From contig NZ_CP113088.1 of assembly GCF_026625145.1 (NCBI RefSeq), forward strand, positions 248,001 through 312,000: a stretch of 64,000 nt of DNA. The letters are read 5' to 3'. The notes under the pieces are model-generated. The model did no database searches and had not been told where the DNA came from. It saw only the letters and a list, made by a program, of their open reading frames with translations. This document shows positions 7,118 to 25,939 of the stretch, piece by piece (position 1 is the first letter of the stretch; each line of letters opens with the position of its first letter). The position numbers and the translations under genes are program-made. This stretch comes from Lacinutrix neustonica. GTDB taxonomy: Bacteria; Bacteroidota; Bacteroidia; Flavobacteriales; Flavobacteriaceae.

Positions 7118-9940
7118 ATGCGTTTGTTAAAATCATCGATGATAATTTGTCTTTTACTTATAGCTTCATGTGCTTCTAAGTCTCATGAAACAACAGAAAA
7201 TGACTTCAAAATAAACTATACGAAATTCACCTTAGAAAACGGACTAGAGGTTATACTGCATGAAGATCATAGTGACCCTATTGTAGCAGTTGCCACGATG
7301 ATGCATGTGGGCTCAAATAGAGAAACCCTAGGGAAGACAGGTTTTGCTCATTTTTTTGAGCACATGAGTTTTAACGATAGTGAAAATGTTCCTGTAGGCG
7401 CGAATAGAAAGATGATTCCAGAATGGGGAGGCAGCCGTAATGGAGGCACATCTAATGACTATACCGTATATTATGAAGTGGTGCCTAAAGATGCTTTCGA
7501 AAAAATACTTTGGATAGATTCAGATCGTTTTGGATATATGATTAATACAGTTACAAAAGCCGCTTTAGAGCGTGAAAAGCAGGTGGTTAAAAACGAAAAA
7601 CGACAACGTGTCGATAATGCAGCTTACGGGTATACAGAAGAAATTAAGAGACAATACCTATATCGAGAAGGACATCCCTATAATTGGACGGTTATTGGTG
7701 CGTTGCCGGACTTACAGGCAGCAACGGTTGAAGATGTCAAGTCTTTTTATGCTAAATATTATGGTGCTAGTAATGCATCATTGGTGATAGCTGGCGATAT
7801 AGACATTGAAGAAACAAAAAAATTAGTCAAGAAATGGTTTGGTGAAATTCCTCGCGGACCACAAGTAGAAGAAATGCCGCCAATGCCAGTGGCTTTAAGC
7901 GAAACAAAATCGTTATACTTTGAAGATGGCTTTGCAAAACTCCCGGAGTTACGGATGACTTACCCAACCGTTGAAAACTATAATAAAGACAAATATGCCC
8001 TTCAAATACTAGGACAGTTGTTAAGCGAAAGTAAAAACGCCCCATTGTATAAAGTTATTGTTGAAGAAGAAAAATTAGCACCAAATGTAAGTTCCTATCA
8101 ATATAGTAGTGAGCTGGCTGGCGAATTTGTTTTTGTGGTACGAGCCAATGATAGCATAGATCTTGATACCGTAAAAGCGGCTATAGATAAGGGGTTAAAT
8201 CGTTTTGAATCAGAGGGTGTTAATGAAAAAGATTTAAAACGAATTAAAGCAGAATTGGAGACCAATTTATATCGTGATATGAGTACGGTTTTAAATAAAG
8301 CCTTTCAACTAGTAGAGGATAATGAGTTTAAAGGCGATCCAAGCTATATTACCCAAACCGCTAAACTCATGGAGGCTGTCACCACTCAAGATATCATGAT
8401 AGTCTACAACAAATATATTAAAGATAAAAATTATGTCATGACCAGCGTGGTCCCTCAAGGCCAACTAAATTTGGCCGTAGCCGAAGCGAATGAAGCTAAG
8501 GTATGGCTTGAAGAAGTAAAACAAGAGGTTGCCAATGAAGAGGTAAGTCAAGGCGCGGAGGCCGTATACAAAAAAACACCTTCCAAATATGATAGAAGCG
8601 AGCCTGAATTTGGTCAATTACCACTATTTAAATCTCCAATAGTTTGGACCAGTTCATTAAACAATGGATTGGAAATATATGGTATTGAAAATAACGAGGT
8701 GCCTTTAATACAATTCGATCTAACCATTCCAGGGGGACATTTACTCGATCCTAAAGATAAATCTGGTGTGGCTAATCTACTTAGTGATATGATGATGGAA
8801 GGGACTGCTAATAAAACACCGGCTGGATTAGAAGAGGCTATTGGTTTGTTAGGAGCAAATATATATACATACTCTACAAACGAAGATTTTCATATTACAG
8901 GGTCTTGTTTAGCTAAGAATTTTAAAGAAACCATGACCTTGGTAAACGAAATTATTTTGGAACCTCGTTGGGATGAGAAGGAGTTTGATAGACTTAAACA
9001 AGCACAAGCCACAAATATCAAAGGAAGAGAAGCGAATCCTAATGTTATAGCTTCTATGGTATATAACAAGTTGTTATATGGTGAGGAACATATTTTATCT
9101 ATTCCCAGCTCAGGAACACAGGAGACTACAAAAGATATCACACTGAAAGACCTCCGGAAATACTACCAAAACTTATCGCCTCAACAGGCAAAATTTCATA
9201 TTGCGGGAGCCATTTCGAAAAATAAGGCAAAAGAGGTTTTAGGGTCTCTAGAGAATTGGTCCGCGGAAGCCGCTACCATTCCTGAATTTCAAGTTCCGGA
9301 AAACCCAAAAGCAAATCTGCTATATTTTATTGATTTCCCTGGGGCGAAACAATCGGTTATTCAAATAGGAAAATTAGCATTAAACAGAACTCATGATTTT
9401 GCCAATAAGTTAAACTTTGCCAATGAGATTTTAGGCGGTGGCTCTAGTGGGAAACTCTTTCAAACGTTAAGAATAGAGAAAGGGTATACTTATGGAGCGT
9501 ATTCTGAGATTAGTGAGAGTAAGACAATAGCACCTTTTACAATTCGAACCAGCGTGAGAGCCAATGCCACTTTAAAATCCTTGGAAATCATTCAAAATAT
9601 GGTTACTAATTATGCTGAAGCGTTTTCAGATAAGGACGTTGAATTAACAAAAAATAAAATTTTAAAAGGGAATACTAGAGCCTATGAAAGTTTAGGGGCA
9701 CAATTACGGATGCTTCAGAATATCAGCAAATACAATTTGCCTACATCGTTTATGGAGGACAACCAAAAAGAGTTAATAGCCATGTCTTTAGACGATTATA
9801 AGAATGCGATAAATATGTTTTTAGATGAAAAGGGTATGATTTATGTAGTAGTGGGTGATAAAGACACTCAATTTGAAGAAATAAAGAAATTCGGAAAAGA
9901 AATTGTAGAGTTGGATATTTATGGAAATACAATAAATTAA
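7118..9940 (+). CDS. M16 family zinc peptidase lipoprotein, two-domain (pitrilysin/insulinase-like)
   Basis: 940 residues. A lipobox at the end of the signal peptide (LIASCASK, Cys at about residue 18) predicts a periplasmic-facing lipoprotein. The first half carries the inverted zinc motif HFFEH (about residue 83) and the downstream Glu segment EREKQVVKNEKRQR that supplies the third ligand. The second half repeats the M16 fold (VPLIQFDLTIPGGHLLDP, then GGGSSGKLFQTLRIEKGYTYGAYS) but has no HxxEH, so it is the non-catalytic half that closes the chamber. Such enzymes degrade peptides in the periplasm. This gene is intact although it contains several CCGGA copies, a useful contrast with its neighbours. 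Confidence 0.93.
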   Translation: MRLLKSSMIICLLLIASCASKSHETTENDFKINYTKFTLENGLEVILHEDHSDPIVAVATMMHVGSNRETLGKTGFAHFFEHMSFNDSENVPVGANRKMIPEWGGSRNGGTSNDYTVYYEVVPKDAFEKILWIDSDRFGYMINTVTKAALEREKQVVKNEKRQRVDNAAYGYTEEIKRQYLYREGHPYNWTVIGALPDLQAATVEDVKSFYAKYYGASNASLVIAGDIDIEETKKLVKKWFGEIPRGPQVEEMPPMPVALSETKSLYFEDGFAKLPELRMTYPTVENYNKDKYALQILGQLLSESKNAPLYKVIVEEEKLAPNVSSYQYSSELAGEFVFVVRANDSIDLDTVKAAIDKGLNRFESEGVNEKDLKRIKAELETNLYRDMSTVLNKAFQLVEDNEFKGDPSYITQTAKLMEAVTTQDIMIVYNKYIKDKNYVMTSVVPQGQLNLAVAEANEAKVWLEEVKQEVANEEVSQGAEAVYKKTPSKYDRSEPEFGQLPLFKSPIVWTSSLNNGLEIYGIENNEVPLIQFDLTIPGGHLLDPKDKSGVANLLSDMMMEGTANKTPAGLEEAIGLLGANIYTYSTNEDFHITGSCLAKNFKETMTLVNEIILEPRWDEKEFDRLKQAQATNIKGREANPNVIASMVYNKLLYGEEHILSIPSSGTQETTKDITLKDLRKYYQNLSPQQAKFHIAGAISKNKAKEVLGSLENWSAEAATIPEFQVPENPKANLLYFIDFPGAKQSVIQIGKLALNRTHDFANKLNFANEILGGGSSGKLFQTLRIEKGYTYGAYSEISESKTIAPFTIRTSVRANATLKSLEIIQNMVTNYAEAFSDKDVELTKNKILKGNTRAYESLGAQLRMLQNISKYNLPTSFMEDNQKELIAMSLDDYKNAINMFLDEKGMIYVVVGDKDTQFEEIKKFGKEIVELDIYGNTIN

Positions 9941-10020: not shown

Positions 10021-10028
10021 TACATTTG
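10021..10028 (+). promoter_or_regulatory. Bacteroidota-type -7 element (TACATTTG)
   Basis: Matches TAnnTTTG, with an expected start of transcription near 10035 and the chosen ATG at 10077. It decides the start of the serine hydrolase: an in-frame TTG at 10026 would lie inside this element. Confidence 0.6.
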
Positions 10029-10076
10029 CGGAAAATTAATGATATATTAAGTCAAATCAGTAAAACAAATAATTAT

Positions 10077-10988
10077 ATGAACAACACACCCAAATTAAAA
10101 TTAACAGTTGTATTATTGCTTTTGGTTTTCATCGGTTTTGGACAACAAAGCCTGCCGATTGCGACGAAAATGGAAATCGATCCTTTGGCGGAACTGCAAA
10201 ACAAAGGATTGCAAACACTCCTCGAGAATCAGATAAATTCTAACTCACAGTTTAGAAAATTGATTGCGAACAAAAAAATGTCTATTGGAATTGTAGATTT
10301 AAGTAACTTGCAAGATGTTAAATACGCAGGGCTTAACGACGAACATATGATGTATGCTGCTAGCTTACCTAAAATAGCCATATTACTTGCAGCAATGGAC
10401 GCCATAGATAAAGGAGAGCTAAAGGATACTAAAGAAGTGAGACAAGACATGCGCTTAATGATAAGTAAATCTAATAATGCAGCGTCTACTAGAATGATTG
10501 ATCGTGTTGGTTACGAGAAGATAGAAGAAGTGCTAAGAGCCCCAGCAAATAAATTGTACGATGAAGAAGTTGGCGGTGGCTTATGGGTTGGAAAACGATA
10601 TGCGGCTGGAGGAAGAAGATATCCTGAACCTATGAAAGGTTTAAGTCATGCGGCTACCACAAAGCAAGTGTGTAGTTTTTACTACCAATTGGCTTTGGGG
10701 AATTTAATTAGCGATGAAAGATCTAAAGAAATGTTAGAAATAATGAAAGATCCTGCATTACATCATAAATTTGTAAATACGCTAGACAAAGTAGCTCCAA
10801 AAGCTACTATTTATAGAAAGTCAGGATCTTGGAAAAATTTTCATGCAGACTCTGCCTTAGTATGGGGGCTTGAAAGGCGCTACATTATTGTCGCTTTAAT
10901 AGATGATAATTTAGGAGAGCAAATTACTAGAAATTTAATAGTACCTATAGAAAAAGTATTAAAAAAATCGAGAGCATTAAAAAAATAG
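10077..10988 (+). CDS. Class A beta-lactamase-like serine hydrolase
   Basis: From ATG 10077 the protein has 303 residues and begins with a signal peptide (LTVVLLLLVFIGFGQQS). The penicillin-recognising triad is complete: SLPK (SxxK nucleophile), SNN (in place of SDN) and KSG (in place of KTG). A Glu equivalent to the Omega-loop Glu166 is not obvious, so it is probably a related periplasmic hydrolase and not a classical beta-lactamase. The transporter-HEAT gene begins 14 bases after the stop, so the two are likely co-transcribed, and a second serine hydrolase with the same triad lies convergently at 13833-15153. Confidence 0.85.
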   Translation: MNNTPKLKLTVVLLLLVFIGFGQQSLPIATKMEIDPLAELQNKGLQTLLENQINSNSQFRKLIANKKMSIGIVDLSNLQDVKYAGLNDEHMMYAASLPKIAILLAAMDAIDKGELKDTKEVRQDMRLMISKSNNAASTRMIDRVGYEKIEEVLRAPANKLYDEEVGGGLWVGKRYAAGGRRYPEPMKGLSHAATTKQVCSFYYQLALGNLISDERSKEMLEIMKDPALHHKFVNTLDKVAPKATIYRKSGSWKNFHADSALVWGLERRYIIVALIDDNLGEQITRNLIVPIEKVLKKSRALKK

Positions 10989-11002: not shown

Positions 11003-13836
11003 TTGTTAAAAAACATTATAAATAAAACATTTGGACTAAGAGATGGTGAAATATACATCTCTTTTTTAATGCAGTTATATATTTTTATAATTATATCTGT
11101 ATTACTTATTGTCAAACCCATAGTTAACGCTTTGTTTCTAAATAGACTAGGAGCAGAGCAGCTACCTTACGGCTATTTACTAGTTGCTTTAGTGGCTGTG
11201 TTAACGGCCTTTCTTTATAATAAAGCGATTAGGGAGTTTTCACTCCTCAAGGTAACCAACACCTCCTTAGTTTTTTTTAGTTTAGGCTTTTTAGCTTTAA
11301 GTGCCGTGCTTTATTTTAATGTCTTAAGTAATTGGGTACTTTATCTGTATTATTTGGGAGTGTCTTTGTTTGCTGTTATAGCGACGTCGCAGTTTTGGAT
11401 TTTGGCTAATATGGTGTTTAATGCCCGTGAAGCCAAAAGGTTATTTGGCTTTATAGGTGCAGGAGCGATAGCAGGAGGTATATTTGGTGGGTATCTTACC
11501 AGTATTGTAGTGTCATCTTACGGGAATAAAGCAGCGATGTTTATCGCGGCAGTACTTATCCTTTCTTGTATTCCAATACTTAGAAAAATATGGAAATTAC
11601 GTATTCGTAAAATGAATGTTTTTATAAGAAAACAACGAAAATATAATGATTCCAATGCTCAAGTTTCTTCATTACAATTAATTTCTAAGTCTAAACATTT
11701 AACGTATTTAGCGCTTATAACAGGAATAAGTGTGATTGTCGCTAAATTAGTAGATTTTCAATTTAGTGATTTTGCAAACAAAGCCATTCAAGACACCAAT
11801 GAATTGGCCTCCTTTTTTGGTTTTTGGTTTTCCACATTTAATGTTATTGCTTTAGCCTTACAGCTTTTTATGACCAATAGATTTTTAAGTCGTTTTGGGG
11901 TATCTACAACATTACTGGTATTGCCATTGGGTATTGCCTTGGGGTGCTTGTTATTTTTAACGTTCCCGAATTATGGGTTTTGGTGATTATAAAAGGGATC
12001 GATGGTAGTTTTAAGCAATCTCTAAATAAAGCGGCTGTAGAATTGTCTATCATGCCCATCCCATACAATATAAAAAATCAGGCAAAATCCTTTATTGATG
12101 TTGCCGTAGATAGTGTCGCCACCGGGATTGCTGGTTTTATGTTGATATTTTTAATTAAAAAATTAAATTTAAGCACCTCCTATATTACCGTAATTGTCAT
12201 TCTTTTCGTATTTATATGGATTGTTTTAATCTACAGGTTGAGAGAGGCATATTTTAATTCCTTTAGGACCAATATTCAGCGTACCCTACTTTCAAATGAT
12301 GAAGGCACAAATGACAAAAAACGCTATGAAACCACAATTGTTGCCGCGAGACGCATATTAAATGCTGAAAAGCCTGAAGACATTTTAAGCTTGTTAGAAC
12401 AATTAAGCGATTATAAAATTTTAGCTTTACAGTCGAGTATTATTAATTTACTGGAACATCCTTCACACCAGGTGAAAGCTGAGGCGATTAAGCAATTGTT
12501 TAAATACGATAAGGGTACTGCCATTGAAAAAGTAGAAGCTTTAGTTCATGAAAAGGATGATGGGTTAGTGTACACGGCATTAGACTATATTATTCACCAT
12601 TCGAACAATAATGCGAATCATTTTTTCGATAAATATTTAAATCATGAAAACGATTATATTTCCAATGCCGCACTATTGTGTTTAGCTAAAGAAGCAGAAC
12701 AGAACACAAAGCTGAGTGAAAAATATAGCCTTAATAAAAGAATTGATGAGCGGGTACGTGCCTTAAATACGCCCGAAGGGTTTAGTAGAAAAGAGGCCGT
12801 GGCAGAGTTGTTAATTACTATTGCTTATTCACGTATTCAAAAGCATTATACATTTATAACAGTTCACTTAAATAATAGAGATCCTTACATTGCAAAGCAT
12901 GCAATTAAAGCAGCAGGTATCACAGCTAGCGAACGTTTTATTGAAGATTTGTTAGAATATTTAGCTGAAAAGGAGTTTAGAAAAACGACGATTAAAGCCC
13001 TTAAAAATTATGGCTCAAGTATAACAAAAACCATTTTAGCTTATGATAAATCAGAAATACTTCGAGACAATGTAAAGGAACACCTGCCTAAAGTCATACA
13101 GTCCTTTGGCACTCAAAATGCCGTTCAAGTCTTACTGAGACTATTGCGGAGTAATGATGTGATTATTAGGTTACAAGTTTCGCGGTCGCTGTTAAGGCTA
13201 AAAGCAAGAAATGAGAATTTGTTTTTTAATAAACGTGTATTAAAACGTGAAATTATAAAAGAGAGTGAATATTACAAGGACACTATTGATGCTATATTTT
13301 CTATACAGAACGATATAAAAAACACCTCTCTTGAGCCTAAAAACGACAATGATATAGAATTACTCATAGCAAGAGAAAGCTTAATTGATGTCCTGGAAGA
13401 ACAATTAGAAACAAGCCTAAAAATTATTTTTAAATTATTGAGTCTAATTTACGATGAAGCAGATATTAAGGTGAGTTATTCCGGTTTATTAAGTGACATC
13501 AAAGAGGCTAAAGTGAATGCCTTAGAATTTTTAGATAACTTACTAAAAAGTCAACTCAAAACAAAAGTATTACCATTAGTTGAATATGCAATCATGGAAG
13601 AAGACGATTTGCATTCAGATATATTGAAAATAAAAACGCTTCCTGAGAAAGTCTATATCTCAAGACTACTTAGAAAGCGTGGTAAGCGTATTAAATTAGA
13701 GCTTTTACATTTAATAAAAGTATTGGACGATAAGAGTTTTTTAACCTTAATTACGCCTTTAAAAAAGCACATGAACAAAGAAGTTAAGTTCTTTGCTCAT
13801 GATACTATTGAAAGTTTAACAGATGTTAGGCGTTAA
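11003..13836 (+). CDS. ATP/ADP translocase-like (Npt/Tlc) transporter fused to HEAT repeats, one motif-linked frame break
   Basis: Restoring one base in CCGA at 11966-11969 gives 944 residues from a TTG start. Residues 1 to about 420 hold some 11-12 membrane helices with segments typical of NTP/NDP exchange transporters (SQFWILANMVFNAREAKRLF, GFIGAGAIAGGIFGGYL, and after the break IIKGIDGSFKQSLNKAAVEL and PYNIKNQAKSFIDV). The rest is a cytosolic solenoid of about 500 residues with repeating helical pairs (HPSHQVKAEAIKQLF, RDPYIAKHAIKAAG, SNDVIIRLQVSRSLLRLKA). Nucleotide exchange is known for obligate intracellular relatives; in free-living Bacteroidota the substrate is unknown. Its stop codon overlaps that of the convergent hydrolase gene by two bases. 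Confidence 0.82.
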
Positions 13837-15153
13837 TTATCACCACCGTCTTGGTCTTCTGTGTCTTTATAATTCTCATCTAATTTTTCTTCTCGGCTTT
13901 TCATGGTCATCAGTAATGAGATCGTCTATTTTACTGGCTAAATACATATGCGCACCAGCTGAATTTTTATTTAATACATTGGTCATCAGACAAACAATAT
14001 ATTTTGTACCATTAGGGTGCTCTACAATAATTACTGAGTTCATATAATTAAACACGTTTCCAGCATAATCTCTACAACCTGGATTCTTAACACGATCACA
14101 TTTGTAGTAACTTCCCGATTTGAAATATACGGCAGCACTGTCTAAGCGGCGTGATCTCGCATAACGAATTCGTCGGTCTGTAGAATACATCAAACGCTTC
14201 ATTTCCAAGCTTGAATTTTCATCAATCACTTTACCTTGCTCCAACTTTACTAGCCATTTCATCAATCCTTTTGGAGTACCAATACTACCGCCTTTTCTTC
14301 CAACATATTTCCCAGCTGGGCGCGTAAAGAATCCGCCAAGTCTCCAATCGTCTTCAGAAATACCCAAATCTCTTAGGGGTTGGTTAACCACCGTATTAGC
14401 TAAATTAGTTAGTGAGTCTCTAGGGGTTTCTTTAAAATAGTTTTCTCCTTGTTCTTCTGTTAAGTTCACATAGTCTGAACCAAATGCAGCCATTAACATG
14501 GCTTCGCGATACATCACACTCGCAGCACCATTATTACTCACTGAAACCATATGATCCAACCATTCAAATAATGAAAATTTATCACTGGCAACCACTTGTC
14601 TTTTTATCAACTTGTCTTTTTCAATATCGTAAATTGGAATCGTATGGTGATCTCCAGTGCCCCAATAACGGGCAGATACTTTAATGTCCTTCAAATACAT
14701 AATGCGGTCCTCCCAAGAATCCGGACAAACCTTTGCCATTTGTGTAAATACCGCATTTAAAACGGCGAGTTTACCAACACTTCCCGGTTGGTAACCCACA
14801 TTCTCTCGATGTCCTGCGTATTTTAGGGCGTTCGGGTTTGTCATGTCTAAAACAGACACTGAATAAGCACCACTGGGGATTAAGCGGTTTATACGTTTTT
14901 GAAAATCCGGATCTGAAATTAATAAGTCGTTAATACTATCTTCATCTCTAGACGTTAAATTTAACTTGAGATCTGCAAGTTTTTTATAGGCCCCAAATGG
15001 GATACGTGTGTAGGGTACACTGTCTATTTGCATTTTTTGTAATTGATACAAACGTTTAATTCCGGTACGCTCGTAACCATCTATAGGGTAAGAAATAAAA
15101 CCAAAAGAGAGTGCAATACACAATCCCATGGTTATATAGAATGCTTTTTTCAT
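13833..15153 (-). CDS. Second beta-lactamase-like serine hydrolase, frame break near C-terminus
   Basis: Joined over TCTCGG 13891-13896 the protein has 439 residues. The N-terminal signal sequence is MKKAFYITMGLCIALSFGF. The triad is GSVGK (SxxK), VSNNG (SNN) and FKSGS (KSG), the same variants as the 10077 protein, but this one is longer, with an extra N-terminal region of about 90 residues and Cys pairs (YKCDRVKNPGCRDY). After the break the tail is acidic (KPEEKLDENYKDTEDQDGGDN). It begins two bases after the stop of the dikinase, so the two form one operon. Role unknown; the fold suggests acting on peptidoglycan or another ester/amide in the periplasm. Confidence 0.8.
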
Positions 15154-15155
15154 AA

Positions 15156-18056
15156 TTATATTTTTTCTGAAAGGTTAATCATTTTTTCGGTTTCAATTTT
15201 TGGAGAAATCGAGGCTAAATACTCTGAACTTTTTGCTTGCTTGTTCTCTACAAACGGTCGAATTTGAAACAACCACAGCTTATTATCTTTAAAACCAAAC
15301 TCTACATCATAGGCTTGATTTTCATTCTCAGAATCTTTAGAGATGGTCGTTCTTATTTTTGCCGCCAATGTTCTAATGTCTGCGATATTTTGCTCATTTA
15401 AGATGGGGCTGTCAAAAGTGGTGATGTACTTTTTGGTACCACCCGTTTCCGGTAATCTGATATAATCTGACTGTCCGGCTGGGGCTAACAACACACTTGA
15501 TTGAGGTGTAATTAATCCGGTTTCTGCACTTTGACCATCTACAGCACCACCAGCGCCACGGCTAAACGCAACAGTTAAATCATCGTCATTTCCGAATTAA
15601 TGCCTTTTGTGATCATGACACCAGAGTAATCTACATCCACACTTGGAATGATTAAAATAGAAGGAAACACGTTTTCCGGATTGCTTAAGTATTTTTGGCG
15701 CCATTTAAAACTACGTTCCGTATACGCCGAAGCCCAAACCCGTTTAATGCCCCTAATAATTTCATCTTCATCTTTAATGTTGAAGAGAGTAAGATTAAGA
15801 CCTGCACCTGTAAACTCTTTTAAATCCTCCATATTGGTATCACTACGTAAAAACACAGGGACCTCACCAATAGCACGCCCAAAGACGGTCTTAAATTGTT
15901 GCCTTAAATCAATATGAAATGCCGTAGACAGAGGCATCTCGATTATGGCCTTATGTAACTTATCAAGAGCTTCTAATTGAAAGGCTTCAACTTCCGCTTC
16001 ACTTTCACCACGATCGGCTAATATTTTAGCTTTGTCAAACGTATCATTTAAGTATTCCCAATAGGTTTTTCCTGTATTTGGCATGTTTTGACTCATGTGT
16101 GATCTGAAAATTCCAAACGGAATGATTAAACCTTCTACCACTTGATCCGGGAATAATTTTTTCAACTCACCAAGATTCGCTGCTTTTGGGCCACATAATT
16201 TACCGGAATCTGTCGCATCGACAGCTCTCATGTTAATCACATCACAGAGATCTAACCTGATTTGATTTACCGGCACCGCAATAACATTTTTACTGCGTTC
16301 CTTTTTGCTGAATAATTCTTTTTCTTCAGAAGACATGTCATCTTCAGCTTTTAAAATCACATTCCCTTTATTAGAGACCGCATAAAATACATTTTTGCCG
16401 AATGTTTCTTCAATGCTTTTAAATTGTCATAAGACAAAGCGGCATTAGGAATGCCTAAATTTCTTGCCAATAACTGAACATGAGAGACTAAATTGCCCTC
16501 AGAGACCGTCATAATACCAGCAACTGGTTTTAAGTCTGAAGGTGGTTTTTCAAAAATATAAATCTTATTAGTATTAACTTCAACCGCATCCGGATTTCCG
16601 TCAACCACAACCAATTCACCATAAGCGTATCCAGGATTTAATCCGCGAATAGCACTTTGGCTTTCAATAGTCATGACTGCGTTATTAATATTTGATGTTT
16701 TAGCAACAAATGCACCCAGTGTGCTAACCGTCTCTCCCAAACTCAAAGCAATGCTGCTGCGAACGCGATCGTCAATAAAGCCATAGGCTAAGGGTTCAAA
16801 AGTGGTATAATTATCTACAGCTTCCTGATAATTTGCTTTTACCATAGAAGCACTCCATTCTACGACGCTTCTGCTAATGGTCAGTAATTCATTTAATTGC
16901 GCAATGCTTAATTGTTCTTCAGCAATTTTATTAGAAATGTCACTTTCAATGGCATGGTATTCCCAAGGTTCAATTAAACCAGTACCCATGGCCGCGCACG
17001 TTAGACTATTAATTTTGTCTAAGTTTTGAGCTAGGGTCGTCGTTTCCCACTTTTGAGTCTCTGTTAACAACGTATGTTCCAGTTGATTTGAAAGATCAAG
17101 GAGTAACAGCCTATGTTTGCTGCTGGTATAAGTGTTTATATTCTGACGTATTTCAACCAAAATATTCGCAATATTAGAGACAAATGCAGAGGCCGATGGC
17201 TTCATTTTATTATCTTTAATAAAGGTTTGAATTTTTTTGTTGTCGTATTGGACGCCGGTAAGCGTTGCATTTCTTTTTCTAAAATAACAAAATCAATAGG
17301 CGCGTAGTACTTCCTCATGGTCTCAATTAAATCATCGAAGTCATCCTTTAAATCAGTAGGGATTTTGTTTTCAACTATAAAATCTTTTACCGGATTGATA
17401 TCTGTTATTTCAGGTTGACCATGGATTTTAATACGAATATCCATGAATTTACTCATATCTTCAGAAATAGTCTTACTTTGACTACGCATCAACTGCGCAA
17501 TATTATCATCACCATTGTGAGGAATATCTTTTAGGGCCTGGCGAATAAAATAGTAGTTAGCATAGATAAATTGCTCGTCTTTAAGTAACCATTCAAAAAA
17601 GTCTTTTCCCCAAGCTTCTTCATCTTCACTTTGTAAGGCGCCTCTATAAAATTGTGCCTTCCTTAAAACCCAACCATCATCAACACTGGCAAGATACTTG
17701 CCTAATTGGTATTGCTTTAATCGGCTGTAGTTTTCGTTTTTATTTAAAAAATCAGATTTATTAGCATCGGCAAGAATTTCACCAAAAAACAAATGATTGG
17801 TTCTCCTTAAATCAAGAGCAGATGTTTTAAAACTGGCATGCTGAATACCACCCCCTATATTATCAGGACAGGGATCTTTTGGTTCCCGTTCTGTTCCGTC
17901 TTTACAAAACCACTTAATACGGTGGTAAGGCCCTCCGGGGTCTTTTTTGTAAGTCTCTATGAGTTGTTGGATTTGATTAATTGATTTTTCCTGTGCCTGT
18001 CCAGTAAAGCTGCAGGTAAAAAACACCATTAAAATTAAAAGTATCGTTTTGTACAT
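15156..18056 (-). CDS. Signal-peptide-bearing dikinase: phosphohistidine domain then PPDK_N ATP-grasp domain, with frame breaks
   Basis: Three breaks: CCGA at 15592-15595 and at 16398-16401, and a run of seven A (17232-17238) that would need to be eight. Joined, it is 967 residues. Residues 1-22 are a signal peptide (ILLILMVFFTCSFTGQAQ). The middle, about 480-560, is a PEP-utiliser-type swivel domain with a probable phospho-His in NLVSHVQLLARNLGIPNA. The C-terminal part is a PPDK_N ATP-binding domain: LCGPKAANLGELK, FLRSDTNMEDLKEF.GAGL and AYDVEFGF...FQIRP. This order (His domain before ATP domain, no PEP/pyruvate barrel) is that of glucan water dikinase, not PEP synthase. If the A-run is correct, this is instead two genes overlapping at ATGA. 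Substrate unknown; an ATP-dependent enzyme behind a signal peptide is unusual. Confidence 0.75.
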
Positions 18057-18279: not shown

Positions 18280-18711
18280 ATGAAAAAGAATCATATCCTA
18301 GCGTTAATGACTTTTATAATGGCTTTTTTGGGCTGTCAAAACACCGTTAAAAGTCAAACACCAAAGGAGGTTCAAGAAGCCTTTCAAGCGAAATATCCAG
18401 GAGAAAATGATCCAGATTGGGAGATAGACTCAAATGGAAATTACGAGTCTCATTTTAAGATTGATGGCGTAAAATATCGTGCAGATTTCTCTCCGGAGGG
18501 AGAATGGATAGAAACTGAAACAAATATTGATAAAAAGGATTTACCGGAGCCTATTCGAACGGCCATTAAATCTAATTATGGTAACGAAAAGATTACAGAG
18601 ATTGAAAAAGTGGATTCGGCGAGTAAAGGACTGTTCTACGATGTAGAGTTTAAACGAAAGGGTAAAAATATGGATGTAGAGTACAGAGCTTCAGGTGAAG
18701 TTGTAAAATAA
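18280..18711 (+). CDS. PepSY-like (BLIP-fold) secreted protein
   Basis: 143 residues. A signal peptide ends in a lipobox-like FLGCQN (Cys near 19). Two similar modules follow, each with a helix and strands: TPKEVQEAFQAKYPG...VKYRADFSPEGEW and LPEPIRTAIKSNYGN...NMDVEYRASGEV. This is the PepSY-like / beta-lactamase-inhibitor-like family (PF11396 type) common in Bacteroidota, of unknown function. It has its own promoter and is divergent from the dikinase operon, which ends in a serine hydrolase of the beta-lactamase fold; a link is only speculative. Confidence 0.78.
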   Translation: MKKNHILALMTFIMAFLGCQNTVKSQTPKEVQEAFQAKYPGENDPDWEIDSNGNYESHFKIDGVKYRADFSPEGEWIETETNIDKKDLPEPIRTAIKSNYGNEKITEIEKVDSASKGLFYDVEFKRKGKNMDVEYRASGEVVK

Positions 18712-20834: not shown

Positions 20835-21885
20835 ATGAAAGAAGTTAAAGCATACGGAACAGAGAGTAATAACGCAGATTTAGGGCAGATGACGATTGAG
20901 CGTCGTGACATTAAAGACAATGATGTAGAAATAGATATTTTATATTGTGGTGTGTGTCACAGTGACATCCACGCAGCTAAAAATGACTGGGGCAATTCTA
21001 AATACCCCTTAGTTCCAGGACATGAAATTATAGGTAAAGTCATACAAGTAGGAGATAGTGTTAAGCATTATAAGTCTCGGTGATTTGGTAGGAGTAGGTT
21101 GTATGGTGGATTCCTGCTTAGAATGCAGTGCCTGTAAGGAGGATTTGGAACAATTTTGCGAGAAAGGCATGGTCGGGACCTACAATGGTAAAAACAAACA
21201 TACGGGCAAGCAAACATTTGGTGGATATTCTACAAGTATTGTTGTAAGAGAAGAATTTGTACTTAGCATTCCGGAAAATCCGGATATTAAAGGCGTTGCT
21301 CCATTATTATGTGCTGGAATAACTACCTTTTCCCCTTTAAACCATTGGAAAATTAAAAAAGGAGATAAGGTAGGCGTTATTGGTCTTGGTGGTTTAGGAC
21401 ATATGGGAATTAAATTTGCGCATGCCATGGGAGCAGAAACATACATGATAACGACCTCTCCGGAAAAAGCGGAGGATGCAAAAAAACTAGGAGCAGATGC
21501 CGTTTTAATTTCCAAAAATGAGGAAGACATGAAAAAACATAAAAACAGTTTCGATTTTCTTTTAAATACGGTGCCTGTAAAGCATGATATCAATCCGTAC
21601 CTTAATCTTTTAAAACGTGATTCCACAATGGTCATGGTTGGAGCGATAGAACCTTTAGAGCCTATGCATGGTGGGAGCCTGATTATGGGTAGAAAACGAG
21701 TGGCTGGTTCGCTAATTGGAGGTATTAAGGAAACTCAAGAGATGTTAGATTTCTGTGGCGAACATAATATTGTGTCTGATGTCGAAATGATCGATATGAA
21801 AGCGATTAATAAGGCCTTTAAAAGAGTGCAGGATAGTGATGTAAAATACCGCTTTGTTATTGATATGAAAAGTTTAAAAAATTAA
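20835..21885 (+). CDS. Zinc-dependent NAD(P) alcohol/aldehyde reductase (CAD/YahK type), one motif-linked frame break
   Basis: Joined over TCTCGG 21075-21080 it has 349 residues. Catalytic zinc ligands are in CGVCHSDIH and PGHEIIGKV; the structural-zinc cysteines lie in VDSCLECSACKEDLEQFC. The nucleotide-binding motif is VIGLGGLGHMGIKFAHAMG. Members reduce a broad range of aldehydes with NADPH, in keeping with an electrophile-detoxifying neighbourhood. At the break the family usually has KVGDLVGVG; the restored codon here would be Ser or Val. Confidence 0.88.
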
Positions 21886-24542: not shown

Positions 24543-25939
24543 ATGAGTACAGATAAAAAGAACAAAGGATTTGAAACCATAAATCCAACGACTGAGAAAC
24601 CAATAGAACACTATGAGTTTATGACTGAAGAACAAGCATTTTCTGCCGTAAAATTATGTCATGAAGCTTTCCTGAAGTGGAAAATGAAGTCGCTAGACGA
24701 ACGTGCCAAGATTATCAAAGGGATTGGTACCGCTCTAAAGGACAATAAAGAGGTTTTATCAAAAATAATGACAGATGAAATGGGTAAACTGCTTAAACAC
24801 AGCTATCAGGAAATTGATCTGTGTATAGGTATTTGTGAGTACACGGCAACAGAAGGGGTTAAACAATTACAGGACGAAGAGCACACACTGGCCGATGGAG
24901 GTAAAGGAATCATTCAGCAAGCACCTCTTGGGGTGATTTATGGCATTCAACCTTGGAATTTCCCAACATATCAAGTGGTGCGTTATGCCATAGTTAATTT
25001 AATGGCAGGCAATGGAGTCCTTTTAAAACATGCACAAAACGTTACTGGTTCTGCATTACAGTTAAAAACTATTTTTGAAAAAGCAGGCGTACCAAAAGAC
25101 CTCTTTACGGTCTTAATTTTAGATCATGATTTGTCAGATAAAATCATTGCCCATGATTTAGTGCGTGGTGTAACACTCACAGGAAGTTCGGAGCAGGTAA
25201 ACACATTGCTAAAATAGCGGGTGAAGCTTTGAAAAAAACGGTTTTAGAACTAGGCAGTAATGATGCCTATCTCGTTTTAGATGATGCAGACATAGAACTG
25301 GCGGTAAAAACCTGTATTCAAGGACGTGTCTATAATAATGGCGAAACCTGTGTCGCTGCAAAACGATTTATTGTTGTAGACAAAGTTTATGATGAATTCA
25401 AAAAGGGCTTTGTGAAGGGGATGCAAAAAATAAATTATGGAAATCCTATGGATTCTGATGCTAAAATGGGCCCTATGGCAAGAGAAGACTTAAGAGAGAC
25501 CATTCATCAACAAGTTTTAGATAGTGTTAAACAAGGTGCCGAGATTTTATGTGGTGGAGAAATACCTGAAGGCACAGGTTATTTTTATCCAGCCTCTATA
25601 TTAGGAAACGTAAAGCCAGGGCAACCAGCCTATGACGAAGAGCTTTTCGGACCTGTGGCCTCTTTAATTAAAGCCAAAGATAATAAGGATGCCATGCGCA
25701 TTGCAAACGACAGTCGTTTTGGATTAGGAGGCGGCATTTTTAGTAAAGATGAAGATAAAGCCATAGCCTTAGCTAAAATGCATTTCGATACTGGGATGAT
25801 TAATATTAATTCTTACGGATTAGCACATCCTAATATGCCTTTTGGCGGTGTAAAAGATTCTGGTTATGGTAGAGAGCATGGCGGGTTTGGCATTCGAGAG
25901 TTTGTGAATTCCAAATCGATTTTAATGAATAAGAATTAA
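24543..25939 (+). CDS. NAD(P)-dependent aldehyde dehydrogenase, succinate-semialdehyde-type, one motif-linked deletion
   Basis: Restoring one base at TCGGA 25189-25193 gives 465 residues. Active-site features are GIQPWNFPTYQ, the cofactor-binding TGSS region, the general base Glu in VLELGSNDAY and the catalytic Cys in NNGETCVAAKRF; near the C-terminus PFGGVKDSGYGREHG. It oxidises aldehydes to acids, and the closest pattern is the succinate-semialdehyde group. The break falls in the NAD-binding loop. Paired with the OYE upstream, suggesting two-step handling of unsaturated aldehydes. Confidence 0.87.

Follow-up and report, generated by a model that had tools for sequence, protein, structure and literature searches.

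How could an enzyme that consumes ATP work outside the cytoplasm? The periplasm is usually regarded as a compartment without an ATP supply, and the question arises from a gene, here called D, within a 64,000-nucleotide stretch of the Lacinutrix neustonica genome (contig NZ_CP113088.1, positions 248,001 to 312,000; hereafter the window). D (15156-18056 of the window, minus strand) encodes a PPDK_N-type dikinase with an export-type signal. An earlier annotation made from the letters and their open reading frames (the sequence-only reading) had already raised this question, and the puzzle stands. A neighbouring gene that this reading did not mention, T (11003-13836), may answer it: T encodes a homologue of the ATP/ADP carrier family, and together with D and two genes for Beta-lactamase2 proteins, B1 and B2, it forms one functional unit.

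The inheritance of a carrier-family homologue with an ATP-grasp enzyme that bears an export signal suggests unrecognised ATP-driven chemistry in the cell envelope. By a narrow margin of judgement, we favour the view that D, B1, T and B2 make up one envelope system in which T supplies ATP across the inner membrane to the exported dikinase. A fuller version is put forward more tentatively, as a proposal that falls somewhat short of what we would assert: an NTT-HEAT carrier would export cellular ATP, driving a periplasmic dikinase that acts on an envelope polymer or peptide which two serine acyl-enzymes build or remodel. Two questions are joined here, the role of NTT-HEAT proteins in free-living bacteria and ATP chemistry in the periplasm. 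If true, the proposal would provide a bacterial counterpart of the feeding of ATP into the lumen of the endoplasmic reticulum or Golgi, and a first function for the NTT-HEAT proteins of free-living bacteria. Such bacteria have NTT homologues, including NTT-HEAT proteins, to which Major et al. (2017) assign no known function (PMC5381601). A search of the open-access literature with a few sets of terms found no description of the four-gene unit.

D, B1, T and B2 form one unit

In the window, B1 (13876-15153, minus strand; PF13354, E 9.9e-12) lies 2 base pairs downstream of D. T (plus strand) is convergent with B1, and B2 (10026-10988, plus strand; PF13354, E 3.1e-20) lies upstream of T, so that B2 and T converge on the D-B1 pair. 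The B2 frame opens with a TTG at 10026, and the true start may be a later ATG. Relatives of the ATP-grasp piece of D are encoded at 194 places in a search of genome_contigs, and the gene is therefore not a chance reading frame. Among the best 80 of these 194 loci, 71 contain all four genes, as do 67 of the 72 loci with 9 kb or more of sequence on the right side of D. The spacing between D and B1 is -4 to +4 bases in 57 of 79 loci, and the 3' ends of B1 and T often overlap. When neighbouring frames were clustered, the four families of the unit appeared in 80, 79, 76 and 73 loci; the next commonest family reached 17 of 80.

The four genes also occur together across genomes. A sample of the window's family (199 genomes from 198 genera, about one genome per genus) has D, T and B1 in an identical set of 39 genomes and B2 in those 39 plus one other (Fisher 2.4e-42, a value that is not corrected for kinship). 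B1 was thus seen only with D, and B2 only with D save in that single genome, G391 (G391:C123:9132-10010), which at E 1e-50 is the sole member of the sample to have B2 and none of the other three; its assembly is 90% complete and lies in 260 contigs. T stands no more than 8 kb from D in 34 of the 39 genomes. Contig ends cut two of the other five (G435, G365), T is about 11 kb away in a third (G324), and in the remaining two (G357, G389) it lies 2 Mb from D or on another contig. In G388 it is B2 that is displaced, 3.3 Mb from the other three genes.

A sample of the phylum (247 genomes, the window's own included) gave the same association. Full-score D was found in 11 genomes, and B1 and B2 were each found in the same 11; these counts omit partial matches of 25-59 bits (9 rows for D and 5 for B2) and, for B1, an additional weak row that six genomes have. 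At E 1e-5, a T homologue was present in 11/11 genomes with D against 18/236 without it, and at a score of at least 400 bits in 10/11 against 3/236. In one genome (G178) the four genes are scattered over four places, and in two others (G199, G183) T is apart from the other three. The two samples share four genomes (G000, which is the window genome, G103, G118 and G130).

Loci in which T appeared to be missing tell the same story. Four loci have D with no T in reach (L042, L055, L069, L073), and the genome of each, like that of L016 as a fifth, contains a full-length T. For L042 this T lies on a different contig and for L069 at a distance of 2 Mb; L055 and L073 have it on the contig of D itself, about 11-12 kb away. 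By coordinates, the genomes of L073 and L069 are G324 and G357 of the family sample. The genome of L016 (G251, Tenacibaculum adriaticum) has two full-length T genes, scoring 1384.3 and 1268.5 bits. At L017 (12711-15542) the T present is of divergent type (about 285 bits) while the D beside it is of close type (454 bits), a mismatch that may reflect an exchange of partners between sub-types. Taken together, gene order and co-occurrence show that D, B1, T and B2 are one functional unit.

Two further genes border the unit in the window and were rejected as members. A gene for a PepSY-like (PF11396) putative lipoprotein (18280-18711), divergent from D, falls outside the unit because it was matched in only 6 of the 80 loci. 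An M16 peptidase gene (7118-9940) likewise adjoins the unit in six loci only (L003, L004, L008, L009, L011 and L038). Two other ideas about the unit as a whole were set aside. PADLOC, searched for an anti-phage system, returned nothing for the L003 versions of D, B1 and B2, and for T a single weak match to HEAT. A mobile plasmid cassette was also considered: none of the plasmid records reaches 80% coverage of D; the 25 records that match it are all below 60% identity, and among the ten listed, covering 32-38% of D, seven are annotated as PEP (phosphoenolpyruvate) synthase.

An export-type signal and a PPDK_N domain in D

The putative signal peptide of D spans residues 1-21 (MYKTILLILMVFFTCSFTGQA; 17994-18056, minus strand), with cleavage before a glutamine judged by eye. 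A crude script, used in place of a signal-peptide predictor, found a strongly hydrophobic N-terminal stretch in 79/79 D orthologues, of which 76 have an A-x-A-Q-like site and one has a lipobox-like string; L065, cut by a contig end, was left out. Divergent orthologues (L083-L092) also keep the hydrophobic stretch by eye. In the intact relative by which D is numbered here, L003 (Lacinutrix venerupis DSM 28755), this stretch is the sole hydrophobic segment of the protein. Two cysteines in the exported N-terminal region are invariant (36/36) and would suit a disulphide. The export signal proposed in the sequence-only reading is thus borne out, and the presumed location of D is the periplasm.

Intact orthologues of D have about 967 residues, arranged as signal peptide, helical region, phosphohistidine swivel domain and C-terminal PPDK_N ATP-grasp domain. 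PPDK_N was matched in all 27 relatives scanned (residues 621-946 in L003, E 5.2e-30); in the window it extends over 15222-16198 (minus strand; a span combined from two Pfam pieces), one piece alone giving E 7.3e-19 and 68.6 bits against a cut-off of 27. The swivel family PF00391 also matches 27/27 relatives, weakly (best E 0.011, below the cut-off where scores are shown), and in L003 it lies at residues 509-537, ahead of PPDK_N. The presumed phosphohistidine, within SHVQLLARN (codon 16480-16482, minus strand), is invariant in 27/27 rows of one alignment (A1) and in 12/12 rows of another (A7), which has three rows in common with the first and nine that are not in it. No PEP/pyruvate barrel appears among 25 of the 29 Pfam families listed for the 27 relatives, nor among the four Pfam families of L003. 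The order of domains noticed at the outset is confirmed on intact proteins, with no barrel seen and with the swivel as the weakly matched element.

Sequence matches of the ATP-grasp domain in the Protein Data Bank (PDB) are to chains named PEP synthase, and by HMMER the order is reversed: residues 695-943 of D align to 109-365 of the PEP synthase chain, and residues 472-551, the swivel segment, to 385-467 (15.6 bits). In an AlphaFold model of D from L003 (pLDDT 78.4), the best fold matches of the ATP-grasp domain are rifampin phosphotransferase (Rph) and PEP synthase, at about 20% identity. Residues 603-940 superpose on Rph 5hv1 with Z 30.9 and a root-mean-square deviation (rmsd) of 2.9 over 307 aligned residues (20% identity), and the same model superposes on PEP synthase 2ols with Z 29.2 and rmsd 3.0 over 299. 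Residues of Rph whose roles are described in PMC4844700 have invariant equivalents in all rows of both alignments, namely R738 for Arg117, T757 for Thr136 (paired by its spacing from Arg117) and H526 for His825; K625, equally invariant, is by position probably Lys22. The invariant E920 says little, because its counterpart Glu297 of Rph proved dispensable (PMC4844700). By its domains D belongs to the PPDK_N dikinase superfamily, and it would be expected to convert ATP to AMP and phosphate by way of a phosphohistidine. PPDK_N matches in the window genome, an assembly about 84% complete, are limited to this gene, and therefore no ordinary PEP synthase or pyruvate phosphate dikinase was found there.

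The partner proteins have recognisable families and intact motifs as well. B1 and B2 both begin with a hydrophobic stretch, and the catalytic motifs are invariant in each: SxxK, SxN and KSG in 16/16 rows for B1, and SLPK, S-x-N and KSG in 15/15 rows for B2, the window included. T (11003-13836) combines a TLC (PF03219) membrane domain of the ATP/ADP carrier family with HEAT repeats. Its frame is broken in the window at a point between about 11815 and 11971; the first piece matches PF03219 (E 3.4e-12) and the second HEAT_2 (E 3.6e-12). The PF03219 score of T is 48.7 bits against a gathering cut-off of 21. Three relatives have 12, 12 and 13 hydrophobic segments in their first 418 or so residues, and among solved structures the membrane part matches two ADP,ATP carrier chains, the chloroplastic 9j3j (5.4e-15) and 9j3n (2.6e-10).

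The window copy of D is itself broken. On the minus strand its first ATG lies at 18056 and its last stop at 15156, exactly where the sequence-only reading had placed the ends of the gene. The single open frame that this implied is not there: D is spread over four stop-to-stop frames (18086-17202, 17292-16357, 16426-15575 and 15596-15156) with three frame changes, and the protein of an intact relative (L004) aligns to the locus in four pieces. A decayed pseudogene would show such changes, three in D and one in T, and nothing functional would then be encoded here. The breaks are not particular to these two genes, however. When proteins of relatives were aligned to the window by tblastn, with one match kept per 1.5-kb bin, nine of the 17 gene regions so defined were split over at least two frames, D and T included; a BrkB-family gene is broken once, and other examples, which look like genes for an alcohol and an aldehyde dehydrogenase, lie at 20835-21879 and 24549-25930. 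The 3.9-Mb assembly, a single contig, is 84.46% complete, and B1 and B2 are unbroken in the window itself. Moreover, in a genome of the same genus (G340) D occupies one open frame of 966 codons, and D, T, B1 and B2 are all free of stops. Because orthologues are intact and nine of 17 window regions are broken, the frame breaks in D are likely assembly indel errors. Decay is ruled out for the family, and for the window copy we give it hardly any weight.

Could T supply ATP to the periplasm?

We propose the following reaction scheme. D would be exported by Sec and act in the periplasm as a swivelling-histidine dikinase, with the reaction ATP + H2O + acceptor -> AMP + Pi + phospho-acceptor, where Pi is inorganic phosphate. 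T would be an inner-membrane protein of the nucleotide-carrier family, with about 12 helices and a soluble HEAT extension, that moves nucleotide across the inner membrane, most likely ATP outwards in exchange for phosphate or a lower adenylate. B1 and B2 would be exported active-serine enzymes of the class A beta-lactamase/DD-peptidase type, acting before or after the phosphorylation on the same envelope or peptide-like substrate. The family and the linkage of T are observed; its substrate and direction of transport, like any step taken by B1 or B2, are read from this context.

Several observations weigh against ATP as the cargo of T. The charged residues K155, E245, E385 and K527 are reported as crucial in the plant carrier AtNTT1 (PMC3306366, PMC10654386), and in a HMMER alignment judged by eye (AtNTT1 numbering derived from the solved chain with an inferred offset of 84) E385 corresponds to Asp251 of T and K527 to Thr374, the position of E245 is non-acidic, and for K155 there is no reliable alignment. 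T scores 31.3 bits on TIGR00769, the model for NTP/NDP exchange, against a cut-off of 387. Since most of the charged residues are absent and this score is far below the cut-off, the cargo of T may be another solute. One relative of the NTT proteins is a carrier for S-adenosylmethionine in Amoebophilus, named in the title of a paper that PMC5381601 cites. The fusions of NTT with HEAT repeats group in a single clade, described as of unknown function (PMC5381601), and a different nucleotide or solute is therefore possible. T homologues also occur in 18 of the 236 phylum genomes without D, three of them at 400 bits or more, and the protein must therefore have other roles too. The homologue in G183 is remote and short (70.9 bits), and with an open frame of only 441 codons it lacks the HEAT part. 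A partial look at the neighbourhoods of eight T homologues outside the unit (L175-L182) found no recurrent ATP-using partner; the accompanying Pfam scan covered three neighbours of L175 and one of L168. Co-occurrence, finally, does not prove that ATP is the link between D and T.

The acceptor is a further difficulty for the proposed scheme. The N-terminal 444 residues of D after the signal, folded alone, gave a model with pLDDT 87.1, and Foldseek found no match for it at E 0.001 (best E 0.39). With VIA-align the best rows reached Z 10.4 at most and covered a stretch of helical bundle of about 87 residues. Weak matches of this kind do not show a new fold, and as none is confident, nothing in this half of the protein points to an acceptor.

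A different setting for T homologues was seen at L175 (4940-11830) and L177 (568-7422), in genomes without D (G081, G151). There three similar genes come after a T homologue of about 910 codons; at L175 their products are a protein with an Omp85 domain, one without any Pfam match and a phosphoesterase of the calcineurin-like type. This is a second setting for NTT-HEAT proteins.

If T does not move ATP, the four genes could still be one unit in which T transports the substrate, the product or another cofactor (such as the acceptor before its phosphorylation, a derivative of a nucleotide or some other charged metabolite), with the ATP for D reaching the periplasm by other means. The loss of most AtNTT1 charged positions and the low TIGR00769 score would fit this view, and a review reports ATP in the periplasm of E. 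coli, an organism with no such carrier (PMC7432876). Set against it are the identical distribution of D and T in the family sample, the PF03219 score of T above its gathering cut-off, and the fact that the characterised NTT members treated by Major et al. are nucleotide carriers of parasites and plastids (PMC5381601). We regard this alternative as unlikely, if by no means negligible.

Two other readings change the role of D instead. As an envelope detoxification or natural-product tailoring system, the unit would have D phosphorylate a small molecule, in the manner of Rph, whose amide or ester bonds B1 and B2 open. The close superposition of the ATP-grasp domain on Rph, the matches of D to the PigC, RedH and Rph profiles and the beta-lactamase family of B1 and B2 all fit such a role, but the matches are limited to the common ATP-grasp domain, to which PEP synthase fits as well (Z 29.2; 91.8 bits). 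The unit also occurs in several families across the phylum, in each case with its own pair of serine enzymes, which would be unusual for a resistance cassette, and we consider this reading improbable. It is more improbable still that D runs in reverse, forming ATP from AMP, phosphate and an exported phospho-compound while T imports that ATP as a form of energy scavenging. PEP synthase runs forward, and no periplasmic source of a high-energy phospho-donor is evident. Rph runs forward too (PMC4844700), although pyruvate phosphate dikinase is ATP-forming in bacteria and protozoa (PMC5371819) and the NTT members of parasites import ATP (PMC5381601). Export of ATP by T to a forward-running D remains the reading that we favour, with the reservations about its cargo given above.

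Comparison with known systems

In GWD and PWD, the alpha-glucan water dikinases of plants and algae that act on starch, the swivel domain stands ahead of a C-terminal PPDK_N domain. D has this order too (PF00391 at 509-537, then PPDK_N at 621-946, in L003), as the sequence-only reading had claimed, and with no PEP/pyruvate barrel seen an acceptor other than pyruvate would be expected; the mechanism of GWD is described in PMC7569903. D differs in carrying a bacterial export-type signal in place of a plastid transit peptide and in being part of a four-gene bacterial unit. An acceptor among cell-surface glucans or peptidoglycan-linked sugars, which that reading put forward, is at most a candidate. 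The more specific tie to starch dikinases that had been suggested found no support: the GWD phosphohistidine profile PF22973 gave weak matches in 9 of 27 D relatives (best E 0.067), and no glucan-binding family appeared among 25 of the 29 Pfam families listed for them, a statement that for CBM45 depends on a Pfam model whose existence is unverified.

With PEP synthase and pyruvate phosphate dikinase D shares the PPDK_N and swivel domains, but it has no barrel that could be seen, the reverse order and an export signal. With no barrel among the families listed and the order reversed, the reading as an ordinary PEP synthase was rejected. A grouping of the C-terminal domain with ordinary PEP synthase, which the sequence-only reading had named as evidence against itself, is seen only in part: the best NCBIfam score of D is to PEP synthase, yet at 91.8 bits against 598, and the match covers only the ATP-grasp domain (residues 606-944).

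Rph, which phosphorylates a non-pyruvate acceptor (PMC4844700), resembles D in its ATP-grasp fold and in the residues Arg117, Thr136, His825 and probably Lys22, whose equivalents are kept. Its ATP-grasp domain is N-terminal and its swivel C-terminal (PMC4844700), the reverse of D, which on the Rph NCBIfam profile scores 55.5 bits against a cut-off of 999, in the ATP-grasp region only. D could thus be placed in none of the named families tested, and its likeness to GWD and Rph is at most mechanistic.

B1 and B2 keep the SxxK, SxN and KSG motifs of class A beta-lactamases and DD-peptidases (PF13354), but against a class A beta-lactamase cut-off of 200 the window B1 reaches 12.8 bits and B2 of L003 25.8 bits; neither protein has a PDB sequence match at E 0.001. 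T departs from the carrier AtNTT1, whose key charged residues are, by eye, largely absent from it. Its closest counterparts are the NTT-HEAT fusions of free-living bacteria reported by Major et al., none of which is called functionally characterised in the available part of that paper (PMC5381601). T shares with them the PF03219 domain, the HEAT repeats and the 12-13 hydrophobic segments, and it differs in coming with a fixed set of partners, a feature that the same part of the paper does not mention (PMC5381601).

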